From positions 372,001-436,000 of the forward strand of contig NZ_CP012371.1 of NCBI RefSeq assembly GCF_000619905.2: DNA of 64,000 nucleotides, written 5' to 3'. This document shows, in pieces, positions 40,204 through 52,006 of the stretch; position 1 is the first letter of the stretch; each line of letters starts with the position of its first letter. Origin of the DNA: Nitrosospira briensis C-128 (GTDB lineage Bacteria > Pseudomonadota > Gammaproteobacteria > Burkholderiales > Nitrosomonadaceae). The position numbers were made by a program, and so were the translations under genes. Below the pieces are notes generated by a model that worked only from the letters and a program-made list of their open reading frames with translations, searched no databases and had not been told where the DNA came from.

Positions 40204-40616
40204 GAAGCTCTCCTTATTGATGCCTGATAGTTTCCGTTAAAGCGATTGATCGTCGAGGGTATACGGCAGGATCATGCCAGACATTAACTGCATCACGGCA
40301 AATGATGATGGGGTAGCCCAGGAAGCTCCTTCTGCATCCACAATTTTCCAGAGGATGAGTTTGGCGGAAGGTGCATACGAACCTTCCGAGGGACGGCACA
40401 AAATCGCAGCATCTCATCTGTGGAAACAGATTGAATCCAAAGCCCAGGTTCTGGCTACGATCTAGCATGAATACGGCAACCGGGTAAAGTGTAACGCCTG
40501 ACGACAGTGTCAACAACGGTCTGGCAAAAGCCGCCGCTGCCAACGTGGGATTGCGAGCTAATGTCACGTAAGGAATAATCTTTAAGCTGCCGTGGAACGA
40601 CCTGCTCAGAAGATTC
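40204..40616. other. Gene-free stretch between zinc-ribbon gene and the repeat-protein cluster
   Basis: About 410 bases. A minus-strand frame at 40214-40567 has no ribosome site or family signal and is probably not coding. No strong hairpin was found. Confidence 0.35.
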
Positions 40617-41048
40617 CTAATCCCTCTTTACAGCAATCCAGGAAGTGACATCACCCGCCTTGGCCCGGCCATCACTGTGAGGGACCGTGCGTACCACGGA
40701 ACCTGTCAGCGTTGGACGCTGATTGATGCCATTCGACCACATCGGAGTGAAAAAACCCACATAGTCATAGACCTGCCCATAGGAATCCTTGGTGTCGCCA
40801 ATCCCCCGAAATCGTACCGTGCATGGAAGAACAAAAGTCGTCCAGCCCGATAACCGGAATTGATAGGTATCACCGAAGGACAGTCGCCCCGCAAACACTT
40901 CCGGACCGAATTCTTCGATGATAAGTTCTCCCCTTCCGAACTCAAGCGCATTGAATTCCTTCGAAACATCGGGTTCGTTGATAAAGCTTCTGTACGTCCA
41001 GCTTCCTAGTACCGAATGTGGAGGCAAAATGCAGTTTTGCATGGTCAT
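40617..41048 (-). CDS. Unknown beta-rich protein, last gene of the tyrosinase cluster
   Basis: 143 residues, start supported by AAGAGG upstream. No signal peptide. The pattern LGSWTYRSF, GRGELIIEEF, FAGRLSFGDTYQFRLSG, VRFRGIGDT and DYVGFF suggests a small antiparallel beta barrel of avidin or lipocalin type; this is by eye only. It ends the - strand gene series starting at 46677 and is separated from the protease gene by 82 bases. I do not recognise the family. Confidence 0.6.
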   Translation of the reverse strand: MTMQNCILPPHSVLGSWTYRSFINEPDVSKEFNALEFGRGELIIEEFGPEVFAGRLSFGDTYQFRLSGWTTFVLPCTVRFRGIGDTKDSYGQVYDYVGFFTPMWSNGINQRPTLTGSVVRTVPHSDGRAKAGDVTSWIAVKRD

Positions 41049-41130
41049 GGTTCGAACCTCTTGATTTTGTTTATGAAACTCATCGGTATTTTTTATGACC
41101 GGTGAGGCTTAAGGCGTGGCGCCCATGGTA

Positions 41131-42453
41131 TTAGCAAATCCCCGGCGCGGGCTGCAATGGTGGAGGGGGCGGATAGGGAATCAGGAATGGCGGCTGCGGG
41201 GGAAACGGCGGAGGGGGCGGATAGGGAATAAGCGCCGGTTCCTCGAACGGCTGGCATGGCTGACCCGCCTGACCCGGCTGATTTGGCTGACCCGTCTGAC
41301 CCGGCTGGTTTGGCTGGCCCGTCTGACCCGGCTGATTTGGCTGACCTGTCTGACCCGGTTGATTTGGCTGGCCCGTCTGACCCGGCTGGTTTGGCTGGCC
41401 CGTCTGACCTGGTTGATTTGGCTGCCCCGTCTGACCTGGTTGATTTGGCTGGCCCGTCTGACCCGGTTGATTTGGCTGGCCCGTCTGATCCGGTTGATTT
41501 GGCTGAGTGCTCATGCTCACATCCAGAGCCGCTAAAACCGCCGCGATGGGGTTTGCTAAGCCATAAGGATCTTTCGGGTCACCCGCAAAGTAGAGGCCGA
41601 CAACCTCGTTGGCATCATTGAGTATTAAGGAGCCGGAGTCCCCGTTGTCGCCAAACTTCGCATTCCGGGTTGAATCGGGCTTTATTCCGATCTGGTTAGT
41701 AAGCTGAATCTGACCAATACCATGTCCAAAGTCGAGATTCACGCTGAGTTCATCCGTATCGACAATGCCGTAGGTCAGCCCCGTGGTCCGTCCGCGCTTC
41801 CGCACGGACTCGCCGAGGGTTGCCTTATTGGTTCCCGCTATCTTGCCGATATCAAGGATCTCCCAGTCTGCCTGACGGGCCGAAAGCTCCGCTACTGCAC
41901 AATCAACCTGATCGCCGAATATCCCGCGCTTCAGTATAGCGACCTCCGAACCGGGACACTTGCCCCCGTCAATCCGGGAGGGCTGCACAATCGCGTCGCC
42001 GACGGACCACGACTTGTCGATGCACAGCACATGAAAATTACTCAGGATCATGGGCTTGCCGGTCGCATTATCCGTGACGAGCGCGCCCAAGGTTCCACCC
42101 CAAGTCATTCGATCCACCAGGCGGCACGGACCGATGCTCATCCCGCCCTTTAAAACGGGATACTCTTTCATATCCGCCTCCAGGACGAGATCAAGGGCAT
42201 CCACGGCCAAAGGTTGCAATACGAACCTTCGCTCGATCACATCAGTGGGAAATCCCTCAATGGCCTGGGGAATACTATCCGCTGGCGAAACATCCCGTTT
42301 TTTCTCGACAAGCACGCGAATCGCCATGGTATTGGTGGGCCGGCCTCCTACTTCCTTAAAGCCGATATCTACTCCCGTAACTCCCGGGCGATTCAGCAGA
42401 TTTTTTTCCACGGCCGTCTTAGCCTGTTTTAGCTTGGGATCAATCTCTGCCAT
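41131..42453 (-). CDS. Trypsin-like serine protease with Pro/Gln repeat tail
   Basis: 440 residues; start supported by GGAGAG six bases before the ATG. N-terminal region (residues 1-95) includes RPGVTGVDIGFKEVGGRPTN, seen in some Nal1-like bacterial proteases. The catalytic triad can be proposed: His in LSNFHVLC, Asp in QVDCAVAEL, Ser in NGDSGSLIL. After that come nine 9-residue units (GQPNQPGQT type) and a tail rich in PPPPP and tyrosine (IPYPPPPP twice), ending in Cys. No signal peptide. Could be a processing protease or an adhesive matrix component. Same strand as the Tyr-repeat gene. Confidence 0.75.
   Translation of the reverse strand: MAEIDPKLKQAKTAVEKNLLNRPGVTGVDIGFKEVGGRPTNTMAIRVLVEKKRDVSPADSIPQAIEGFPTDVIERRFVLQPLAVDALDLVLEADMKEYPVLKGGMSIGPCRLVDRMTWGGTLGALVTDNATGKPMILSNFHVLCIDKSWSVGDAIVQPSRIDGGKCPGSEVAILKRGIFGDQVDCAVAELSARQADWEILDIGKIAGTNKATLGESVRKRGRTTGLTYGIVDTDELSVNLDFGHGIGQIQLTNQIGIKPDSTRNAKFGDNGDSGSLILNDANEVVGLYFAGDPKDPYGLANPIAAVLAALDVSMSTQPNQPDQTGQPNQPGQTGQPNQPGQTGQPNQPGQTGQPNQPGQTGQPNQPGQTGQPNQPGQTGQPNQPGQTGQPNQPGQAGQPCQPFEEPALIPYPPPPPFPPQPPFLIPYPPPPPLQPAPGIC
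41266..41505 (-). repeat. 27-bp coding repeats (GQPNQPGQT units) in the protease gene
   Basis: Nine near-identical 27-bp units: eight GQPNQPGQ[T/A] and a variant first unit QPNQPDQT. The unit keeps the frame. Likely to vary in number between strains by slippage or recombination. Confidence 0.85.
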
Positions 42454-42537
42454 AGCAGTCTCTCCAGTATCGGTACGGGAAAATTATTTTTCCAGACCTT
42501 TGTTTATCAATAATGACCAGCTGCCCATCTCGCCAGG

Positions 42538-43461
42538 TTATGTGGGTGAATCTCCGGATGCAAGTCGGCGTCCGATGGCCAGAAGTAGCTTTTCAGTTTC
42601 TGCCGCGTGCGCGCTGGCAACTGCCGGATCTTCGAGTCTCTCGTAGAGCCCAGCGGGCGCTCCTTCTGCCGCATCAGGTATTTTCCCCATCCATTTGCCC
42701 TGCCAGAAATTGCTTCCAAAAACGCCATGAACTACTTTCCAGCTTTCAACCCGATCATCCACCCACCCATAAAACTTCCAATACACGGGATTAACCTGCA
42801 TCGAATAAAAATCAGGGAGGTAGTTGTACCGAGGGTCGTCCCATTCGACTGGTATTGTCTCAACCTCGGGACCAGGATCGGGGCGCCTGGCACCGGGAAC
42901 AGCCGACCATCTCCGCTTCACCGTGTCATGTACCGTAGTATGGATAAGCTCGCCCAGCATGCCGAGACTTATATCCTTCAAAAACCCCGGATCGGTAAAC
43001 ATGTTCTCCCAGGGCTTGAGGTACTTCGCGAAGGTAAGGTCGGTCTTGGATCGCGTCATGAATTGAATGACTACCGGGAACTCTCCCGGATCAAACCACG
43101 GTGCCGGAACGGGAAAGTCGGGGTCATCCGGACATGATATCTCCAGCCAGCCTTCTATACGCCCATAGCTAGGATCGCCTGCCCGTGCAAGAATCTTGTT
43201 TGCATATTGGATGGTCTGACGATGCATGTAGAGATAATCCTCGCCAGAACCATTGTTCACGAACGGATCGCCATTTTCATCCAAGGCTGGTCGGGGTGGC
43301 TCCCACCCGGCCTTCCGCAACTCATCCTGCAGGTCTTTTGGATAATTTACCCAATTGTCACGCACCTCATGCCAAAGATAGTAATGCATTCGACATGCTC
43401 GGGCAGCCATCGCATCGACAAGTTGTTCAGGAACGGGAGGGGTCACCGAATCTTTCCTCAA
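42538..43461 (-). CDS. Tyrosinase-like protein with incomplete copper site
   Basis: Up to 307 residues from a TTG at 43461 (start uncertain). Clearly homologous to the protein at 44609: MHYYLWHEVRDNW, YLYMHRQTI (H80, the FLxxHR of tyrosinase CuA), ELIHTTVHDTV (H174 and H178, the CuB HxxxH) and NPVYWKFYGWVDDRVESW. In the last motif the copper-binding His of the paralogue (KLHGW) is Tyr231, and an upstream His (SSHVNP) is Gln222. Loss of the CuB ligand suggests an inactive or altered enzyme. It could act as a partner of the intact paralogue, or have a changed role. Confidence 0.7.
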   Translation of the reverse strand: MRKDSVTPPVPEQLVDAMAARACRMHYYLWHEVRDNWVNYPKDLQDELRKAGWEPPRPALDENGDPFVNNGSGEDYLYMHRQTIQYANKILARAGDPSYGRIEGWLEISCPDDPDFPVPAPWFDPGEFPVVIQFMTRSKTDLTFAKYLKPWENMFTDPGFLKDISLGMLGELIHTTVHDTVKRRWSAVPGARRPDPGPEVETIPVEWDDPRYNYLPDFYSMQVNPVYWKFYGWVDDRVESWKVVHGVFGSNFWQGKWMGKIPDAAEGAPAGLYERLEDPAVASAHAAETEKLLLAIGRRLASGDSPT

Positions 43462-43505
43462 TTACAAAAACGTTTCTCGGAAAAGGCTCGCGGGCTGCTC
43501 ATGGA

Positions 43506-44486
43506 TTATTGACAACCACGTACCGCTTCCAGCGACGGATAGCCACCGTAACCACGCTGGGCTTCCAGGGATGGATAGCCACCATAACCGCGCTGGGCTT
43601 CCAGGGATGGATAGCCGCCGTAACCGCGTTGGGCTTCAAGTGATGGATAGCCACCGTAACCACGTTGGGCTTCAAGCGACGGATAGCCGCCGTAACCACG
43701 TTGGGCTTCCAGTGATGGATAACCACCATAACCGCGTTGGGCTTCAAGCGACGGATAACCACCATAACCGCGTTGGGCTTCAAGCGACGGATAGCCACCG
43801 TAACCACGCTGGGCGTCAAGTGACGGATAGCCGCCGTAACCGCGCTGGGCTTCAAGTGACGGATAGCCGCCATAACCGCGTTGGGCTTCAAGTGACGGAT
43901 AGCCACCGTAACCACGCTGGGCGTCAAGTGACGGATAGCCACCGTAACCACGCTGGGCGTCAAGTGACGGATAGCCGCCGTAACCGCGCTGGGCTTCAAG
44001 TGACGGATAGCCGCCGTAACCACGTTGGGCTTCAAGCGACGGATAGCCGCCATAACCACGTTGGGCTTCAAGCGACGGATAGCCGCCATAACCGCGTTGG
44101 GCTTCAAATGACGGATAGCCGCCGTAACCACGCTGGGCTTCAAGTGACGGATAGCCGCCGTAACCACGCTGGGCTTCAAGTGACGGATAGCCACCGTAAC
44201 CACGCTGGGCTTCAAGTGACGGATAGCCGCCGTAACCACGCTGGGCTTCCAGTGACGGATAGCCGCCATAACCACGTTGGGCTTCAAGTGATGGATAACC
44301 GCCATAACCGCGCTGGGCTTCCAATGACGGATAACCGCCGTAACCGCGCTGGGCTTCCAGTGATGGATAACCGCCGTAACCGCGTTGGGCTTCAAGTGAC
44401 GGATAACCGCCATAACCGCGTTGGGCTTCCAGTGACGGATAGCCGCCATAACCGCGTTGGGCTTCAAATTGTGGGCAACCGTTCAT
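43506..44486 (-). CDS. Tyrosine-rich repeat protein (26 copies of a 12-residue unit)
   Basis: 326 residues from ATG 44486. AAGGAG six bases upstream decides this start; an in-frame ATG at 44501 overlaps that ribosome site. The protein is MNGCPQFEAQRG, then exactly 26 units of YGGYPSLEAQRG, then CQ. Variants are few: three units have Asp for Glu, one has Phe for Leu, and the last has Val for Gln. Tyrosine is about one residue in six. The only cysteines are at position 4 and the penultimate residue. There is no signal peptide. It lies between two tyrosinase-like genes, which could oxidise its tyrosines. Function unknown; resembles structural or adhesive repeat proteins in character only. Confidence 0.85.
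   Translation of the reverse strand: MNGCPQFEAQRGYGGYPSLEAQRGYGGYPSLEAQRGYGGYPSLEAQRGYGGYPSLEAQRGYGGYPSLEAQRGYGGYPSLEAQRGYGGYPSLEAQRGYGGYPSLEAQRGYGGYPSLEAQRGYGGYPSFEAQRGYGGYPSLEAQRGYGGYPSLEAQRGYGGYPSLEAQRGYGGYPSLDAQRGYGGYPSLDAQRGYGGYPSLEAQRGYGGYPSLEAQRGYGGYPSLDAQRGYGGYPSLEAQRGYGGYPSLEAQRGYGGYPSLEAQRGYGGYPSLEAQRGYGGYPSLEAQRGYGGYPSLEAQRGYGGYPSLEAQRGYGGYPSLEAVRGCQ
43515..44450 (-). repeat. 36-bp tandem coding repeat, 26 copies
   Basis: Contiguous 36-bp units without spacers. Most differences between units fall at silent positions (for example GCC/GCG and CGT/CGC-type changes on the coding strand), so the protein sequence looks conserved while DNA varies. The length is an exact multiple of 36 (936 bp). 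Confidence 0.95.
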
Positions 44487-44492
44487 AAGAAT

Positions 44493-44498
44493 CTCCTT
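44493..44498 (-). promoter_or_regulatory. Ribosome binding site of the Tyr-repeat gene
   Basis: AAGGAG six bases before ATG 44486. It lies inside the longer in-frame reading that starts at 44501, so it decides the start of the repeat protein. Confidence 0.75.
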
Positions 44499-44608
44499 CA
44501 TTTATGTGCTGCTGTTGGTAAAAATCCCCTCTCATGCAAATTCCTTTATTGCCAATTCTCCAGGCCCTTCTTAATTGGCTGCCAGAACTAGCTTAAAGCC
44601 TTGCCTTC

Positions 44609-45718
44609 CTACCATGCTTCAATCGAAAACGATGGCATGAATGGGTTATGGTGAAAAACGCCTGTTTGGGCGATCAGATTCACGACCTGCTGTGACTCGG
44701 CCATAAGGGAAACCGCATGCTCTGGCATCCCGTGCAATGCGTGCGGGGCAGCCATCTCCTCGTGGCCCGGCATCTTCCCTATCCATGTTCCTTTCCAGAA
44801 ACTATTCCCGAACACGCCATTGGCGATCTTCCAGCCCTCAACCCGATCATCGATCCAGCCGTGCAGTTTCCAGAATATGGGGTTGACGTGACTTGAATAC
44901 GTATCTCCCAAAAAATCGTACCGTGGATCATCCCATTCCACGCCAATCACCCCACCTCTCGTTGGATCGATATCTCCAGTGGCTTGCAGAGGATCAGGAC
45001 GAACGGTGCCAGTGGAGGCCGCCCATCTCATATGCATGGCGTTATGAATCGTCATTTCTATGATTACACCGAGTTTTCCGAGGGTTACACTACGTAGAAA
45101 TACGGGATCAATGAACGCTTTTTGCCAGAAATGGAAGCGTTTCTCATAGAAGATGTTGGATTTGATCCGATCAAGATTCGCGAAAGGTGCCTGATCTTGC
45201 CCCCCTGGATCAAACCAGGCTGGCGGTACGGGGTAGCTTGCATCATCCGGCGGCGGCGGTACCAGCCAGCCCTGTACGCGCGGATAATTCGGGTCCCCGA
45301 CTTGCTTGAGGATAGCGTTGACGTCTCCAATCATCTGCCGGTGCATATAAAGAAAATCTTCGCCGGAATCATTTTCGATATTCGGATTACCGCCTTCATC
45401 CAGAACCGGCCGGGGTGGTTTCCAGCCAAGCTCATCGATCTTCTGTTGAATATCATGTGGGTATTGATACCAGTTGTTCCGCACCTCATGCCAGAGCCAG
45501 TGGTGCATACGGTGCTCGCGGCTGGCCATCATATCGATTACTTCTTTAGGAAGCGGGTGGTCGTTACGGCCCGCTGCACACGCGGGGCATTCCTCGGTGT
45601 GCGCAACGTGCTGATGCGCCTCCGGGTGGGTGTGATCGGAACCCGTATGATGTGGTTGATCGCCGGATGCGGCAGTGGCCATATGATGCAACTGAGGGTG
45701 CAAGTCCGAAGCGCTCAC
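44609..45718 (-). CDS. Tyrosinase-like type-3 copper protein, His-rich N-terminus
   Basis: 369 residues from GTG 45718 (start moderately uncertain). Residues 1-50 carry about ten His and a CPAC motif; no signal peptide. Tyrosinase-like copper motifs: MHHWLWHEV (H72, H73, H77), FLYMHRQMI (H126), TIHNAMHMRW (H225 and H229) and NPIFWKLHGWIDDRVEGW (H286). These match the CuA FLPWHR and CuB HNxxH and DPxFWxxH patterns. Expected chemistry: O2-dependent oxidation of tyrosine or phenols to o-diphenols or quinones. The Tyr-repeat protein, 122 bases downstream, is the obvious candidate substrate (inference). His-rich segment may take up copper. Confidence 0.75.
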   Translation of the reverse strand: MSASDLHPQLHHMATAASGDQPHHTGSDHTHPEAHQHVAHTEECPACAAGRNDHPLPKEVIDMMASREHRMHHWLWHEVRNNWYQYPHDIQQKIDELGWKPPRPVLDEGGNPNIENDSGEDFLYMHRQMIGDVNAILKQVGDPNYPRVQGWLVPPPPDDASYPVPPAWFDPGGQDQAPFANLDRIKSNIFYEKRFHFWQKAFIDPVFLRSVTLGKLGVIIEMTIHNAMHMRWAASTGTVRPDPLQATGDIDPTRGGVIGVEWDDPRYDFLGDTYSSHVNPIFWKLHGWIDDRVEGWKIANGVFGNSFWKGTWIGKMPGHEEMAAPHALHGMPEHAVSLMAESQQVVNLIAQTGVFHHNPFMPSFSIEAW

Positions 45719-45939
45719 CAGTTTCCCATTGGATTTATCATAACGTCATAAATTCGGTAGTTCGTCGCCGCTGATTGTCCGTGAGCTGAAATCCTGTATT
45801 CGATTTTCGAGCCAACTAAACGCCATTCGCTATAATCTGGAAGTAATATAAAAGTGTGTCTAGACTTCTTCGGTGCGGCAACACACAAACATCAAGAATT
45901 TTGAAAGGGCCTTTCAGGGCGCTCCTTTCAAACGATGGC

Positions 45940-46677
45940 TCAAAGAATGGGAATATCTTCCGCGACGCCTTTAAGGTTCAATACATCGTAAGATAATTCC
46001 GCGCCGGCCGGGTTTATCACCCGACCCCTGCTGCGTGCTTTGATTCCCAGCGTTTTGAAATCCTGCCGTGCTTCACCTCCCAGATTAACCGGGGGCAGAA
46101 CAAGCGCGAAATCGATACCACCCGCATCGGCATCCGGTCTGAGAGTGACTGAAATAAGCGACCCGAGAATAGTTTGCTCCTGGGTGATATCTTCTCCATG
46201 GAATATCAACTGACCTTCCGGACCATCGTATTGGAGTTGTGCACCCGCGGGAGACTCGCTTGCTCCCAATGGAGTGAGCGCCCGGGGGAAAAATACGATG
46301 TGCGTACGGCCGTCGCAATCGCTCAGGGTGAAGTGATTGGGATGCCGATCAGATTGACCGGAATCATCCAGCATCGCAGTTTTTGAAATTTGCGAAGCAT
46401 GTATCCGGACCCCTTTCACATCCGGCGTTAAATTTTCCCTGATGTAAACGGCTTCGATGGGAGAAATTACCTGCGTCGCAACTCCCTCGGGAGGATCTGC
46501 AACAAAATCGAAATCGTAAATACCGTCCGGTGGCGCCTGGATATAGATGTAAGGATCCAGTTTGGGATTGGACCAGCCACCGGTGGGCACGGTACCCGAT
46601 GCCGTAATACTTAATTTGGGCGGGAAACTTTCCAGAACGGCAAGCGCGATTTCGGTAACTTCCAGAATTTTTTCCAT
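45940..46677 (-). CDS. Unknown protein, first gene of the tyrosinase cluster
   Basis: 245 residues from ATG 46677, with GGGGA six bases upstream; the frame opens earlier at 46713. No signal peptide. The N-terminal half reads as a beta-sandwich-like domain (LSITASGTVPTGGWSNPKLDPYIYI, DGIYDFDFVADPPEGVATQV), which I associate with uncharacterised proteins in diverse bacteria. A C-terminal half contains PPVNLGGEARQDFKTLGIKARSRG. It is separated from the tyrosinase gene by about 220 bases, so it may have a separate promoter, but the strand is the same. Confidence 0.6.
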   Translation of the reverse strand: MEKILEVTEIALAVLESFPPKLSITASGTVPTGGWSNPKLDPYIYIQAPPDGIYDFDFVADPPEGVATQVISPIEAVYIRENLTPDVKGVRIHASQISKTAMLDDSGQSDRHPNHFTLSDCDGRTHIVFFPRALTPLGASESPAGAQLQYDGPEGQLIFHGEDITQEQTILGSLISVTLRPDADAGGIDFALVLPPVNLGGEARQDFKTLGIKARSRGRVINPAGAELSYDVLNLKGVAEDIPIL

Positions 46678-46813
46678 ACCAGTTCCCCAGAACGTTGAAG
46701 ATGGGCCAGACATCGCTATGCTCTGTATCCGCTTCTATGTTCTTTATAGTTTAGAAAATAGAAAAGGCAAGAGTGAGATTGAGCAAAACGACCGGGGAAT
46801 GTATCTGCGACCG

Positions 46814-47923
46814 TCACAAAAGGCGGTTACGGAACAGCCAGGCAGCCAGCGGTAGTGTAATAGCAGATATGACCAGCAGTGGAATCAGGTCATGGACGAC
46901 TGTGAGCAACCCGACACCCTCCAGGTAGACGCGCTGCGCCAGATCGATCGCGAAGCGCAACGGGTTGATCAAAGTGGCGGTTTGCAGGAATTGCGGCATG
47001 TTACGTACCGGCGTGGCCAGTCCGGAAAGCAGCATCAGCGGCATGATCAGCATGAAAGTGTAAAGCATGGCTTGTTGCATGTTTGCCGAAATCGCCGAGA
47101 TCGATAGCCCCATGCCGACGCTGGCAATAGTGAACAGGCCCAACCCGGTGTAGAGCGTCACCAGTGAACCTGCCATCGGTATATTGAACCAGAACAGCGC
47201 CACTACCAGTACGATGGTGGATTGCGTCAGGCCAATCATGATGATTGGAATAGCCTTACCGATCATGACTTCCATCGGCGAAAACGGAGTCACCAGCAAT
47301 TGGTCGAAAGTGCCATTTTCGCGCTCCCGAGCAACGGACAGCGCAGACAGCATCAGCGTCTGTATCATGCTCAGCGCGGCAATCAAGCCGGGCAGCAGAT
47401 TCCAGCGGGTCTCCAGATTCGGGTTGTACCAGGCACGCGACTCAACGGTGAGCGGCGGTCCGGTCCCGCCGCGCAGCGTCGCATTAAACGAATCGATGAC
47501 TGCGCCAACATAGATCGCAGCGGAGCCGGCCGTATTCGAATTGCGTGCGTCCAGAATCAATTGCACCGGCGCGGATTCGCCTGCGTTCAGTTGTTGCTCG
47601 AACCTTGGCCCGATCTGGATCACGATCAGCGCATCTCCGCTGTCGATTACCCGTGCGATATCGCTCTGCGTCTGCAGCATTGCGATACGATGAAATACGC
47701 CGGTACCGTCCAGGTGAGCGATCAATTCGGTTGATGCGGAGCCACGGCTTTGATCCAGCAAGGCGTAAGGCACATTGGTCAGATCATAGGTGGCCGCATA
47801 ACCGAAAAGAAAACTCTCTATCAATGAGGGAACGACGAGAATGACGCGATTAGCGGGATCCTTGAAAATAGCCAGTAACTCTTTCCGGCACAGGCTGGCG
47901 ATACGGCGCAGGAAATCCAGCAT
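46814..47923 (-). CDS. ybhR: ABC-2 permease of a YbhFSR-type exporter
   Basis: 369 residues from ATG 47923, 2 bases after the other permease stop. An N-terminal membrane helix (residues 25-45), a large periplasmic region, and five C-terminal helices (ALSMIQTLMLSALSVARERENGTFDQLLVTPF is the coupling region before them). With the paralogous permease it would form the membrane part of an efflux pump. Gene order HlyD, double ATPase, permease, permease copies E. coli ybhGFSR, and lengths fit. Confidence 0.82.
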   Translation of the reverse strand: MLDFLRRIASLCRKELLAIFKDPANRVILVVPSLIESFLFGYAATYDLTNVPYALLDQSRGSASTELIAHLDGTGVFHRIAMLQTQSDIARVIDSGDALIVIQIGPRFEQQLNAGESAPVQLILDARNSNTAGSAAIYVGAVIDSFNATLRGGTGPPLTVESRAWYNPNLETRWNLLPGLIAALSMIQTLMLSALSVARERENGTFDQLLVTPFSPMEVMIGKAIPIIMIGLTQSTIVLVVALFWFNIPMAGSLVTLYTGLGLFTIASVGMGLSISAISANMQQAMLYTFMLIMPLMLLSGLATPVRNMPQFLQTATLINPLRFAIDLAQRVYLEGVGLLTVVHDLIPLLVISAITLPLAAWLFRNRLL

Positions 47924-47925
47924 GT

Positions 47926-49155
47926 TCAATCCAGCTTCTTGCGGGTGACGGCTCGTGCCAGCCCCAGCAGCACCACGGCATAGCCCGCCAGGATCGCGCA
48001 GTTCTTGAAAATCAGCGGCCATATGTTGCCCGCCAGGAACAACGTCCTGATCAGTTCCATGAAATAGGTAGCCGGCAGCGCGTTGCCGATAAGATGGATG
48101 ACAGTCGGCACATTACGCAAATCGAAAAAAAAGCCCGATAGCATCAGTGCCGGCATGAAACTGGTGATCAGTGCAAGCTGGCTGGCCAGGAACTGGTTCC
48201 GGGTCACCGAAGAAATCAGCAGGCCCAGGCCTAACGCTACCAGCAGGTAAAGCATCGAACTGCCAAGCACTATCAGCAGTGAACCGTACATGGGCACCTC
48301 GAACAGGAAGCGCGCGGCGAGCAGGCACATGCCCAGGCCAAGCATCCCGACCATAAAGTACGGAATAATCTTCGCCAGCAGTATCTCGTTGGGCCGCACT
48401 GGGGAGACAAACAATGCTTCCAGCGTGCCGCGTTCCCATTCCCGGGCCATTACCATCGCCGTGAGGAAGGCACCGACCAGCGTCATGATCAGTACGATCA
48501 ACCCGGGTACGAGATACCAGGTACTGGTATTGGCGGCGTTGAACCACATCCGCTGAATCAGCGTAACCGAACCCGAGGCGGCACTGTCCACGCCTGCTGC
48601 TGTAACCATCCCTTGATCGCTCTGACGTTGCGCCCACTGGCCCAGGGCGCCGCTGACATAGCTGCGTATGATAAGGGCACGACTGGCATCGGAACCATGC
48701 AGCAGTAACTGCACCTGCGCGTTCCCAGCCGCGAGGCGGCGCGAAAAATCGCTCTGCACCTGCACAATGGCATCCACCTCGCGCGCCAGCATCAGGCGCT
48801 GCGCATCATGCATGGAGGTAACCACTACCGGCGAGATATATGCGGAGAGTTCCAGGCCTGCGATGACATCAGCCGCCATGGGCGAAGGATCTTCCAGCAC
48901 CACCGCCACCGTGGCATTCCTGACATCGAGTGAAAGTCCATAGCCGAAAATCAGGATCAATACGAAAGGCAGGCCGATGCCGATGACCAGGTTGCTCCGG
49001 TCACGCAGTAGCTGGCGAATTTCCTTGCGGGTCAAGGAGATCAGACGCGACAAGAATCCCCTGATACCTTTATGTCTCTTGTACCCATTATCCGCTTTGC
49101 CCGATTTATACGCGGTATGTTCCTTGCTCCCTGCCTCTGTTCCGGCTTTGCTCAT
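47926..49155 (-). CDS. ybhS: ABC-2 permease of a YbhFSR-type exporter
   Basis: 409 residues; ATG overlaps the ATPase stop by 4 bp (ATGA). A polar N-terminus of about 35 residues, longer than YbhS, precedes the first helix (LVIGIGLPFVLILIFGYGLS). The periplasmic domain and the C-terminal ABC-2 helices (MAREWERGTLEALFVSPVRPNEILLAK coupling region) follow. Partner of the permease at 46814. Confidence 0.82.
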   Translation of the reverse strand: MSKAGTEAGSKEHTAYKSGKADNGYKRHKGIRGFLSRLISLTRKEIRQLLRDRSNLVIGIGLPFVLILIFGYGLSLDVRNATVAVVLEDPSPMAADVIAGLELSAYISPVVVTSMHDAQRLMLAREVDAIVQVQSDFSRRLAAGNAQVQLLLHGSDASRALIIRSYVSGALGQWAQRQSDQGMVTAAGVDSAASGSVTLIQRMWFNAANTSTWYLVPGLIVLIMTLVGAFLTAMVMAREWERGTLEALFVSPVRPNEILLAKIIPYFMVGMLGLGMCLLAARFLFEVPMYGSLLIVLGSSMLYLLVALGLGLLISSVTRNQFLASQLALITSFMPALMLSGFFFDLRNVPTVIHLIGNALPATYFMELIRTLFLAGNIWPLIFKNCAILAGYAVVLLGLARAVTRKKLD

Positions 49156-50987
49156 GGGTTGGCTTCCCTGGCGGGACTTTCACTGTTTTTCTGCCGCTCC
49201 TGCTCGACGATGCGGATGAAGGCCTCTTCCATATCCAATCGGGCGCCCTCTCCACCCGCTTGCATCCGTACCTCCTGCGGAGTGCCGAGTGCCAGCAGCC
49301 TGCCGGCATCCTGGATGACAATACGGTCGCAGTACTCGGCCTCTTCCATGAAATGGGTCGTAATGATAATCGTCGTACCCACCTCCGACAGCGCAGTGAT
49401 ACGCCGCCAGAATTCCCGGCGCTTGAGCGGATCGGTGCCACTGGTGGGTTCGTCAAGGAACAGGATATCAGGCTCGTGCAGCAGGCCGACCGCCATCGCC
49501 AGGCGTTGCTTGAATCCGCCGGGCAATTGCCCGCTCGGCGATTTCTCCCTGCCCTCGAGGTCGAACTGTTGCATAACGGTATCGATGCGCTCGCGCAAGC
49601 GCTTGCCGTACAAACCATATGCGCTACCGAAAAACGCCAGGTTTTCCATTACCGAGAGATCGCCGTAAAGCGCAAACTTCTGCGACATATACCCTATCCT
49701 GCGGCGTGCTACCGCGCGAGCACGCAGAAGATTGAAGCCGGCAACCTGAAGAAAACCGCTCGTGGCCGGCAGAAGGCCGCAAAGCATTCGAAAGGTCGTA
49801 GTCTTGCCTGCACCGTTGGGGCCCAGCAGGCCGAAGATTTCGCCGCGCCGAACCGAGAATGAAACATGGTCCACCGCGGTGAAATCACCGAACTTGCGCA
49901 CCAGGTCACGCACCTCGATGACAACTTCATCCGGCTCGCCTTTAGTGTCATCTTCACCTCCTTTAGCATCATCTTCACCGTTACCTTCGTTTCTCATCCC
50001 GCTAGTGGCCTTCAGTGCCGCCGTATCCAGCGGGGCCACATCGTGGCGTTCACGCAGCAGCACCATGAACCCGTCTTCCACGCGTGCTTCGACCGCTGTA
50101 GCCGGAATACCGCCAAGCAAGCTGTCCAGGCGCTGCCGGTCCACCTCGGATCGGCGGATGAAGCGCACAGCGCCGCCGTAAGGAACCGCATCGATGATGC
50201 AATCGGCGTCATCCAGCAAGCGCGCCTGGAGAATACGCGATGGTTGGCCTTGCGGCGGTGTAACGACGAAACACAGGTTGCGCGCATGTTGGCGAATTTC
50301 TTCGGGGGTGCCTTCAGCCAGCAGCTTGCCTTCCTGAAGAACGAAAACACGAGCACAATGCTCGGCTTCATCCAGATAAGCAGTGGTAACCAATACCGTC
50401 AACTGCTCGTCGTCAATCATTTGCTGAACAATCTCCCAGAGCTCCCGGCGCGACAATGGATCGACACCCACCGTCGGCTCATCGAGCAATAGCAGCTCGG
50501 GCGAACGCACGAGGGTGCAGGCCAGGCCCAGTTTCTGCTTCATGCCCCCCGAGAGCTTGCCTGTCGGACGCGCGGTGAAGCATGCCAGATCGGTCATTTC
50601 CAGGAGCCTTGCGTAGCGTTTCCGGCGAATTGCTTGCGGCACGCCATGCAGATCGGCGTAGAGGTCGAGGTTTTCCTGCACGCTGAGGTCTTCATACAGG
50701 CCGAAGCGCTGCGGCATATAGCTGATGCGGTCCTGCACCGCCTGTGGATCGGCTGCCACATCAATGCCCAGCACCTCGAGCCGGCCTTCGTCGGCCGTCA
50801 TCAGTCCGGCTATCAACCGCAGCAAAGTGGTCTTGCCCGCGCCATCGGGACCAACCAGGGCCGTGAGCGAACCCATCTGCACTGCAAGCGAAACGTCAGC
50901 GACCGCTTGAGTCGATTTCCCCGTTTCCTTGACCAGAAAACGTTTATGGACGCGATTTGCAATCAGCGCGACTGCCGGATCGCTCAT
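49152..50987 (-). CDS. ybhF: Double ABC ATPase of a YbhFSR-type exporter
   Basis: 611 residues with two complete nucleotide-binding domains. First: GPDGAGKTT, LSGGMKQKLGLA, LLLLDEPTVGVDP. Second: GPNGAGKTT, LPGGFKQRLAMA, ILFLDEPTSGTDP. An acidic, Lys/Gly-rich linker (KGGEDDTKGEPDE) joins them. I chose ATG 50987, which overlaps the HlyD stop (TGATG); a TTG 3 bases earlier is possible. It drives the two permeases. Confidence 0.88.
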   Translation of the reverse strand: MSDPAVALIANRVHKRFLVKETGKSTQAVADVSLAVQMGSLTALVGPDGAGKTTLLRLIAGLMTADEGRLEVLGIDVAADPQAVQDRISYMPQRFGLYEDLSVQENLDLYADLHGVPQAIRRKRYARLLEMTDLACFTARPTGKLSGGMKQKLGLACTLVRSPELLLLDEPTVGVDPLSRRELWEIVQQMIDDEQLTVLVTTAYLDEAEHCARVFVLQEGKLLAEGTPEEIRQHARNLCFVVTPPQGQPSRILQARLLDDADCIIDAVPYGGAVRFIRRSEVDRQRLDSLLGGIPATAVEARVEDGFMVLLRERHDVAPLDTAALKATSGMRNEGNGEDDAKGGEDDTKGEPDEVVIEVRDLVRKFGDFTAVDHVSFSVRRGEIFGLLGPNGAGKTTTFRMLCGLLPATSGFLQVAGFNLLRARAVARRRIGYMSQKFALYGDLSVMENLAFFGSAYGLYGKRLRERIDTVMQQFDLEGREKSPSGQLPGGFKQRLAMAVGLLHEPDILFLDEPTSGTDPLKRREFWRRITALSEVGTTIIITTHFMEEAEYCDRIVIQDAGRLLALGTPQEVRMQAGGEGARLDMEEAFIRIVEQERQKNSESPAREANP

Positions 50988-52006
50988 CAATGCGCCGTTC
51001 CAGCGAAACTCTTGTCGTCTTGCAAGGGGATGAGCACCGTGGCCGGCATGCCCAGACGCAGGCGGTCACCGACATCTTCGACAAAGACACGCACTTCATA
51101 GACCAGGCTGGTGCGCAGTTCTTCGGTCTGCACAATCTTGGGGGTAAACTCCGCGACTGAGGAGATATAGCCGATGCGGCCCGGAATCGATTGATCGGGA
51201 TGGCTGTCAGTAACCACGCGCGCACTCATACCGGACTTGATGCGGCCCAGATCCACTTCCGATACATAGGCGCGCACCCATTTTGGGTCGGTAATCGCCA
51301 GCGCATATACCGGACGTTGCGGTGAAGCCATATCGCCCGGTTCCAGCAAGCGCGAGCGCACGACGGCATTGATGGGCGACTTCAATTCATACAGGCTGAG
51401 CTGGTGCTTGAGCAAAGCCAGCTCAGCCTGCGAAACGTTCAATTGTGCCTCGGCCTGGGCGATGTCTTCCTTGCGTGGACCGATCACAGCCAATTGCAGC
51501 GCCTTCTGGTTGTTTTCCAGCTGTGCCTGGGCCACACGCTGGCGTGAACGCGCGCTGTCCAGATCCTGCTGGCTGACCGCCTGGTCGGCAGCGTGCTCGA
51601 TATTTTGCAAACGTTTGAGGAGCTGTGCGGCGAGATCCGCGTCGGCGCGAGCAGCAGCGACCTCAGCCTTGGCTTGAGCCACCTCTTCGGGGCGCGTTCC
51701 GTTCCTCAGCCGTAACAAGGCCTGATCCTGTACGTTGATCTGTGCTTCGGCCTGAGCGATTTGCAGGCTCAGGGTGCGGGTGTCGAGCGTGGCCAGGATT
51801 TGTCCGGTCTCCACCCGATCGCCTTCCTGCACGCGCATATCGGCGACCCGTTCGCTGCCGTTGAAAGCTAGCGAGACCTGGCGAATATCGACATTACCGA
51901 AGAGCACCAGCGTATCGCTATCATTCTGCTGCCGGGTGAAATACCAAACTGCCGTCACCGCGACGATGATGACAAGCACAGCCACCAGGACAAGCCTTTT
52001 CTTCAT
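50987..52006 (-). CDS. ybhG: HlyD-family periplasmic adaptor of the YbhFSR-type exporter
   Basis: 339 residues. N-terminal membrane anchor (residues 5-22), lipoyl-like and long coiled-coil region (LQIAQAEAQINVQDQALL, VAQAKAEVAAARADADLAAQ, QLENNQKALQ), and the C-terminal beta-barrel (VRAYVSEVDLGRIKSGM). First gene of the exporter operon. It would link the inner-membrane pump to an outer-membrane TolC protein encoded elsewhere. Substrate unknown. Confidence 0.85.
   Translation of the reverse strand: MKKRLVLVAVLVIIVAVTAVWYFTRQQNDSDTLVLFGNVDIRQVSLAFNGSERVADMRVQEGDRVETGQILATLDTRTLSLQIAQAEAQINVQDQALLRLRNGTRPEEVAQAKAEVAAARADADLAAQLLKRLQNIEHAADQAVSQQDLDSARSRQRVAQAQLENNQKALQLAVIGPRKEDIAQAEAQLNVSQAELALLKHQLSLYELKSPINAVVRSRLLEPGDMASPQRPVYALAITDPKWVRAYVSEVDLGRIKSGMSARVVTDSHPDQSIPGRIGYISSVAEFTPKIVQTEELRTSLVYEVRVFVEDVGDRLRLGMPATVLIPLQDDKSFAGTAH

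Follow-up and report, generated by a model that had tools for sequence, protein, structure and literature searches.

Features of the locus

The window, that is, the whole 64,000-nt stretch of DNA analysed, lies in the genome of Nitrosospira briensis C-128, which consists of one contig and was reported to be 3,210,113 bp long in a paper that does not mention tyrosinase (PMC4964001). As summarized in Table 1, five genes form a cassette in the order TyrA (a PvdP-type tyrosinase), a tyrosine-rich repeat protein, TyrB (a paralogue of TyrA), a NAL1-like serine protease and a 143-aa homologue of a barrel domain. TyrA is located upstream and TyrB downstream of the repeat gene, and all three are on the same strand. 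Note that the start codon of TyrB is uncertain; a GTG near 43446 is also possible. An AAGGAG motif is found just 5' of the repeat-gene ATG in all three species that carry the cassette, and scans for promoters, terminators and Rfam families gave nothing above chance. No export signal was visible in any of the cassette proteins.

Table 1. Positions, in the window, of the cassette, its genes and the adjoining gene
Feature	Position	Strand	Basis or remark
Exchangeable cassette	40221..45938	.	Junctions common to three relatives with a classical tyrosinase block
143-aa protein	40617..41048	-	Homologue of the N-terminal domain in PvdP-like tyrosinase fusions
NAL1-like serine protease	41131..42453	-	H/D/S motifs SNFHVLC, DCAVAEL, GDSGS; C-terminal PGQTGQPNQ repeat tail
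TyrB, TyrA paralogue	42538..43461	-	NF051454 E 5e-33; alignments
Tyrosine-rich repeat protein gene	43506..44486	-	326 aa; proposed tyrosinase substrate
36-bp tandem array within repeat gene	43525..44467	-	TRF
TyrA, PvdP-type tyrosinase	44609..45718	-	NF051454 E 3e-48; PDB 6rrr Z 29.8; alignments
Flanking gene just outside cassette	45940..46713	-	Orthologues precede classical tyrosinase in relatives

The repeat protein and its evolution

As read from the translation, the N. briensis repeat protein contains 26 copies of EAQRGYGGYPSL, and the RGYGGY motif recurs in 26 units at a spacing of exactly 12 residues, in agreement with the near-perfect 12-residue repeat described in the initial annotation. 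Tyrosine accounts for 52 residues (16%), Lys and His are both absent, and the pI is about 6-6.5. At the DNA level, TRF reported 26.2 copies of 36 bp with 91% matches, no indels and a score of 1340, and the array ranks first in the window. Two further long open frames over the same stretch, 43571-44488 (+) and, in a different frame, 43499-44467 (-), are by-products of the repeat. Searches of Pfam and NCBIfam with the repeat protein returned no family, and its scores to tryptophan-tRNA ligase, SclB and MFS18 were compositional. The only leader-like sequence is a short M(N/D)GxPQ start, common to the three species, and no hydrophobic N-terminal segment was seen by eye, as the earlier statement that a secretion signal is lacking had it.

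The initial annotation also held that the units vary mostly at silent sites, and suggested a count of synonymous versus nonsynonymous differences as a check. The 25 complete units comprise 22 distinct DNA units versus 3 peptide variants (the consensus in 21, E to D in 3 and L to F in 1), and third codon positions make up 9 of the 10 variable columns. Silent differences far outnumber nonsynonymous ones: of 73 departures from the consensus unit, 68 are synonymous, where randomly placed mutations would give 23 (2000 simulations, maximum 36), and pS and pN are 0.389 and 0.013, respectively, giving a pN/pS of 0.034.

Two relatives encode the same type of protein, namely G021, with 16 copies of EAARGYGGYPSL, and Nitrosovibrio tenuis Nv1 (G010), with 19 copies of EALRGYPGYTSL. 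The unit number differs between the three species (26, 16 and 19). Both Tyr residues per unit are kept across all of these units, and, barring single-unit variants, the two Tyr, Arg-Gly and Ser-Leu are common to all three species. The pN/pS values of the three arrays are 0.034, 0 and 0.037, which strongly supports, at the level of sequence, the view that the peptide of the repeat is under strong selection in the three species independently, as had been suggested for N. briensis. The arrays are uniform internally and different from one another: species-specific replacements are present in every unit (Q/A/L at one position, G/P and P/T elsewhere), and the fixed silent codons also differ between species, which shows that re-amplification or homogenisation of each array followed the separation of the species, with silent drift thereafter. 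The earlier contrast of selection with recent slippage thus stands for selection, and its slippage part has to be qualified by this re-amplification.

The two Cys residues were placed correctly, at residue 4 and next to last (residue 325), and were proposed to link chains end to end. The C-terminal Cys is kept in the three species (GCQ, CCH and GCH), whereas the two relatives have Tyr or Met in place of the N-terminal one, so that end-to-end disulfide linking is unsupported. A disulfide-linked structural repeat protein with incidental tyrosinases would fit the one Cys near either end in N. briensis; given the absence of the N-terminal Cys from both relatives and the conserved order of the five genes, we regard it as highly improbable.

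TyrA and TyrB

The flanking tyrosinases, overlooked in the initial annotation, are the key to function. TyrA and TyrB match NF051454, the NCBIfam model for the pyoverdine maturation tyrosinase PvdP, with 164.5 and 114.3 bits, respectively, both under the curated equivalog cut-off of 625 bits, and also match PvdP structures by sequence; a PF00264 search of the two proteins gave no match at E up to 1. The predicted model of TyrA (mean pLDDT 73, core mostly above 80) aligned with PvdP at Z 29.8 and rmsd 2.3 for 276 residues. All six expected Cu-ligand His residues are present in TyrA (73, 77, 126, 225, 229 and 286), and in the alignment they are invariant among TyrA, its relatives in other phyla, whether free-standing or fused, and the PvdPs of four Pseudomonas sequences. 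The N-terminus of TyrA is His-rich with a CPAC motif, and neither a signal peptide nor a Tat motif was seen in it.

The six-His pattern of PvdP, complete in TyrA, is broken in TyrB, where three of the six are replaced in all three species (73 by Y/N, 229 by K/R and 286 by Y/S) and a new His is gained at position 221. TyrA and TyrB form sister clades (support 95/93), TyrB having the longer stem, and the dN/dS of TyrB is about 0.07 between N. briensis and G021. Since three Cu-ligand His residues were lost in all three species and the sequence is nevertheless constrained, TyrB is likely a pseudoenzyme under purifying selection.

A PvdP-like tyrosinase with the six His intact is also encoded in Candidatus Nitrosocosmicus, an ammonia-oxidising archaeon (L011 9989-10900), and it branches beside the Nitrosospira TyrA/TyrB pair (support 87/87). 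At L020 and L044, in Microvirga and Mesorhizobium, PvdP-like tyrosinases lie near LodA/GoxA-type cysteine-tryptophylquinone oxidases.

The 143-aa protein and the NAL1-like protease

The 143-aa protein is 40% and 37% identical to the N-terminal domain fused to the PvdP-like tyrosinases of Bacillus sp. ISL-51 and Mesorhizobium onobrychidis, respectively, and its match to the Pseudomonas PvdP barrel is weak (hhalign probability 23). Its model has eight strands at low confidence (pLDDT 56) and gave no usable fold match, and the assignment was made by sequence homology alone. PvdP consists of an N-terminal beta-barrel and a tyrosinase domain (PMC9569983). Given this two-domain layout and the homology of the 143-aa protein, the two domains of PvdP seem to be split into separate proteins in the cassette, and the 143-aa protein is probably a beta-barrel partner acting in trans.

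The NAL1-like protease scores below the cut-off of the Nal1 Pfam models, and homologues on a Paenibacillus plasmid (Nal1_C) and a Rhizobium plasmid (NAL1_N) score over it. Its PGQTGQPNQ tail (41257-41505) is collagen-like, and the tail varies between species in both its length and its unit. In G021, a second protein that looks by eye like the protease is encoded immediately upstream of the cassette, on the other strand (L007 4905-5870). In Rhizobium, NAL1-like proteases directly follow PvdP-like tyrosinases, and on two Rhizobium plasmids a NAL1-like protease lies beside a repeat protein, a radical SAM enzyme and an HEXXH peptide-modification protein. The repeat proteins of these plasmid loci (L046 1760-6867 and L063 2459-7969) have multiple EMHDQTHSEGG-type units, and the loci are probable multi-core modified-peptide clusters. 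Because repeat proteins, modifying enzymes and proteases of this kind repeatedly occur together, a modification-pathway reading of the cassette is supported.

The same recurrence on the two plasmids could speak for a RiPP-like multi-core precursor, in which TyrA would modify Tyr and the protease would cut the chain to identical dodecapeptides serving as small bis-catechol metallophores or signals. The identical units, the modifying enzyme adjoining the precursor and the protease in the cluster agree with such a pathway. However, the position of the trypsin S1 aspartate is occupied by Phe in the protease (aligned by eye), so that Arg-specific cutting is not predicted; moreover, the conserved block has no exporter, and no clear leader is seen apart from M(N/D)GxPQ. 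We consequently consider a RiPP-like precursor rather unlikely.

Distribution and exchange of the cassette

The tyrosinase pair was found in 3 of the 23 genomes of the genus, the repeat protein in the same three, and neither without the other. G021 and N. tenuis have the identical five genes in identical order, and a ribosomal precursor-like gene adjoins a modifying-enzyme gene in an order conserved in three genomes. When the 36-52 kb part of the window was compared with the 19-kb loci of these two relatives, there were no matches beyond the cassette. A search for similar repeat proteins covered 398 genomes of the phylum; the four matches inspected were rejected, as their repeats (EAEPEI, KGHDDH and others) were unrelated or lay out of frame. 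No repeat protein was found within the flanks examined of PvdP-like tyrosinases outside the genus, so that the pairing of repeat protein and tyrosinase is drawn from one lineage.

Other relatives carry different DNA at the same site. The flanks of G009 follow the window collinearly until 45940 and again from 40221, at about 90% identity (81% in the flanking gene), and the interval between the junctions holds about 8 kb of other DNA. This encodes a small protein followed by a classical tyrosinase (PF00264, E 9e-44), and, in addition, an AMP-binding enzyme, a subtilase and a protein with a PatG domain. G015 and G022 have junctions at 45938 and 40218 and the same block type, and the classical block of all three genomes lacks a tyrosine repeat protein. 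In G011, a 111-bp remnant (36 codons) of the 143-aa gene remains at the cassette site of G021. The shared junctions and this remnant indicate that the cassette is a discrete unit that was lost or exchanged, and that a tyrosinase of another family can replace it at the same site. The PatG-domain protein of the classical block has a Gly/Cys-rich stretch (GNCGCGG, GGCSCGG; L086 7059-15121 in G009, L103 and L104).

Orthologues of the flanking gene come before the classical tyrosinase in relatives, so that it may encode a tyrosinase-associated protein; in its C-terminal part it is similar to a protein adjoining another N. briensis tyrosinase. The N. briensis genome has four PF00264 matches, and no repeat protein was found beside these four classical tyrosinases. 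Between two and five such matches are present in each of the Nitrosospira-group genomes searched (e.g., G000:C1 145134, 2288979, 2553752 and 3184776), a number unusual for ammonia oxidisers and apparently undiscussed.

The classical block at the same site in relatives without the tyrosine repeat, and the further classical tyrosinase matches in each genome of the genus, would suit a model in which small phenols are the substrate of TyrA, or melanin its product, and the repeat protein serves as a structural or scaffold protein that receives quinones instead of being the direct substrate. However, neither Tyr varies in any unit of the three species, although other positions do, and a peptide substrate is known for PvdP-type enzymes; we therefore consider a quinone-receiving scaffold distinctly unlikely.

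Two further candidates were rejected. Export by the adjacent ABC-2 genes (46814-50990) was set aside, as these genes also neighbour the classical tyrosinase block of G009, G015 and G022, and in G010 and G021 a distance of 46-60 kb separates them from the cassette. A pyoverdine or other NRPS substrate was dismissed because NRPS genes occur in 23 of 23 genomes versus the cassette in 3, with none in the block; in N. briensis, too, NRPS lies outside the cassette block.

Proposed function

We favour the reading, at a probability of roughly two in three, that the repeat protein is made on ribosomes and serves as the substrate of a copper tyrosinase system that is dedicated to it and probably cytosolic. 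TyrA and TyrB flank the Tyr-rich gene in each of the three genomes with the cassette. PvdP was reported to hydroxylate and oxidise tyrosine within the peptide ferribactin (PMC6206403), and analogy predicts that TyrA converts the tyrosines of the repeat to DOPA. Several points weigh against this reading. PvdP acts in the periplasm, but the cassette proteins have no visible export signal, and copper is scarce in the cytosol. The pairing of repeat protein and tyrosinase comes from one lineage, the match to the barrel of Pseudomonas PvdP is weak, and the N. briensis genome also contains an NRPS and four classical tyrosinase matches. In addition, tyrosinases can act on small phenols.

We infer the identity of the substrate, DOPA formation, the roles of TyrB, the barrel and the protease, and the final use, as follows. 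TyrA would hydroxylate Tyr of each RGYxGYxSL unit to DOPA, possibly onward to quinone, with its His-rich, CPAC-bearing N-terminus as a probable copper supply. TyrB and the separate barrel would play non-catalytic parts, holding the substrate or bringing in copper, and the NAL1-like protease may trim or release the product. The product would be a polycatechol protein, or catechol peptides upon proteolysis, that binds metal ions and/or coheres; a fully modified chain would carry 52 catechols per 326 residues. The C-terminal Cys would be the main internal nucleophile for a quinone cross-link, the chain being without Lys. Because amine partners are few, we infer that metal chelation or C-terminal Cys-DOPA linking is likelier than Lys-type tanning.

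A more specific proposal, for which we see about even chances, is that the product is a ribosomal poly-DOPA protein, in which an active/pseudo-tyrosinase pair and a trans-acting barrel hydroxylate dozens of repeat tyrosines inside the cell, making it a prokaryotic counterpart of mussel-type catechol proteins with an origin in siderophore-type tyrosinases. No such system was found in the open-access literature on Nitrosospira tyrosinase, bacterial tyrosinase RiPPs and DOPA repeat proteins.

If true, the cassette would provide a bacterial protein that is naturally and densely DOPA-modified by its cognate enzyme, hence a genetically simple, five-gene source of catechol protein, as well as a model for enzyme recognition of repeat tyrosines, a case of a selectively retained pseudo-tyrosinase and a PvdP-type enzyme beyond siderophore synthesis. 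DOPA chemistry is used by mussels for sticking and metal binding, and N. briensis is a soil ammonia oxidiser; the product might be a new metal-binding or matrix material for ammonia oxidisers, organisms that need both copper and iron.

Comparison with known systems

The Rhizobium plasmid clusters resemble the cassette in having a repeat protein, a modifying enzyme and a NAL1-like protease adjoining one another, but they employ a radical SAM enzyme and an HEXXH protein, and their EMHDQTHSEGG repeat is His-rich, not Tyr-rich. The classical bacterial tyrosinase (PF00264), encoded after a small helper-like protein, occupies the same junctions in three relatives and is expected to perform the same chemistry, but belongs to a different tyrosinase family and has no tyrosine repeat protein.

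The pyoverdine maturation tyrosinase PvdP of Pseudomonas (PDB 6eys, 6rrp-6rrr) shares with TyrA the tyrosinase fold and the six-His pattern, and with the cassette a beta-barrel partner domain and, as predicted for TyrA, a target that is tyrosine inside a peptide. PvdP is, however, a single fusion protein that is exported by Tat and modifies a non-ribosomal peptide, whereas in the cassette the barrel and the enzyme are separate genes, no Tat signal is present, a second, degenerate copy exists, and the likely substrate is a ribosomal repeat.

Mussel foot proteins and the tubeworm proteins Pc-1/Pc-2 are animal DOPA adhesives hydroxylated by tyrosinase (PMC4275877, PMC6474901). The repeat protein has no homology to them, contains no Lys, has a pI of about 6-6.5 where they are basic, and lacks a secretion signal, and its DOPA is only predicted; what it shares with these adhesives is the combination of Tyr/Gly-rich tandem repeats with a tyrosinase.
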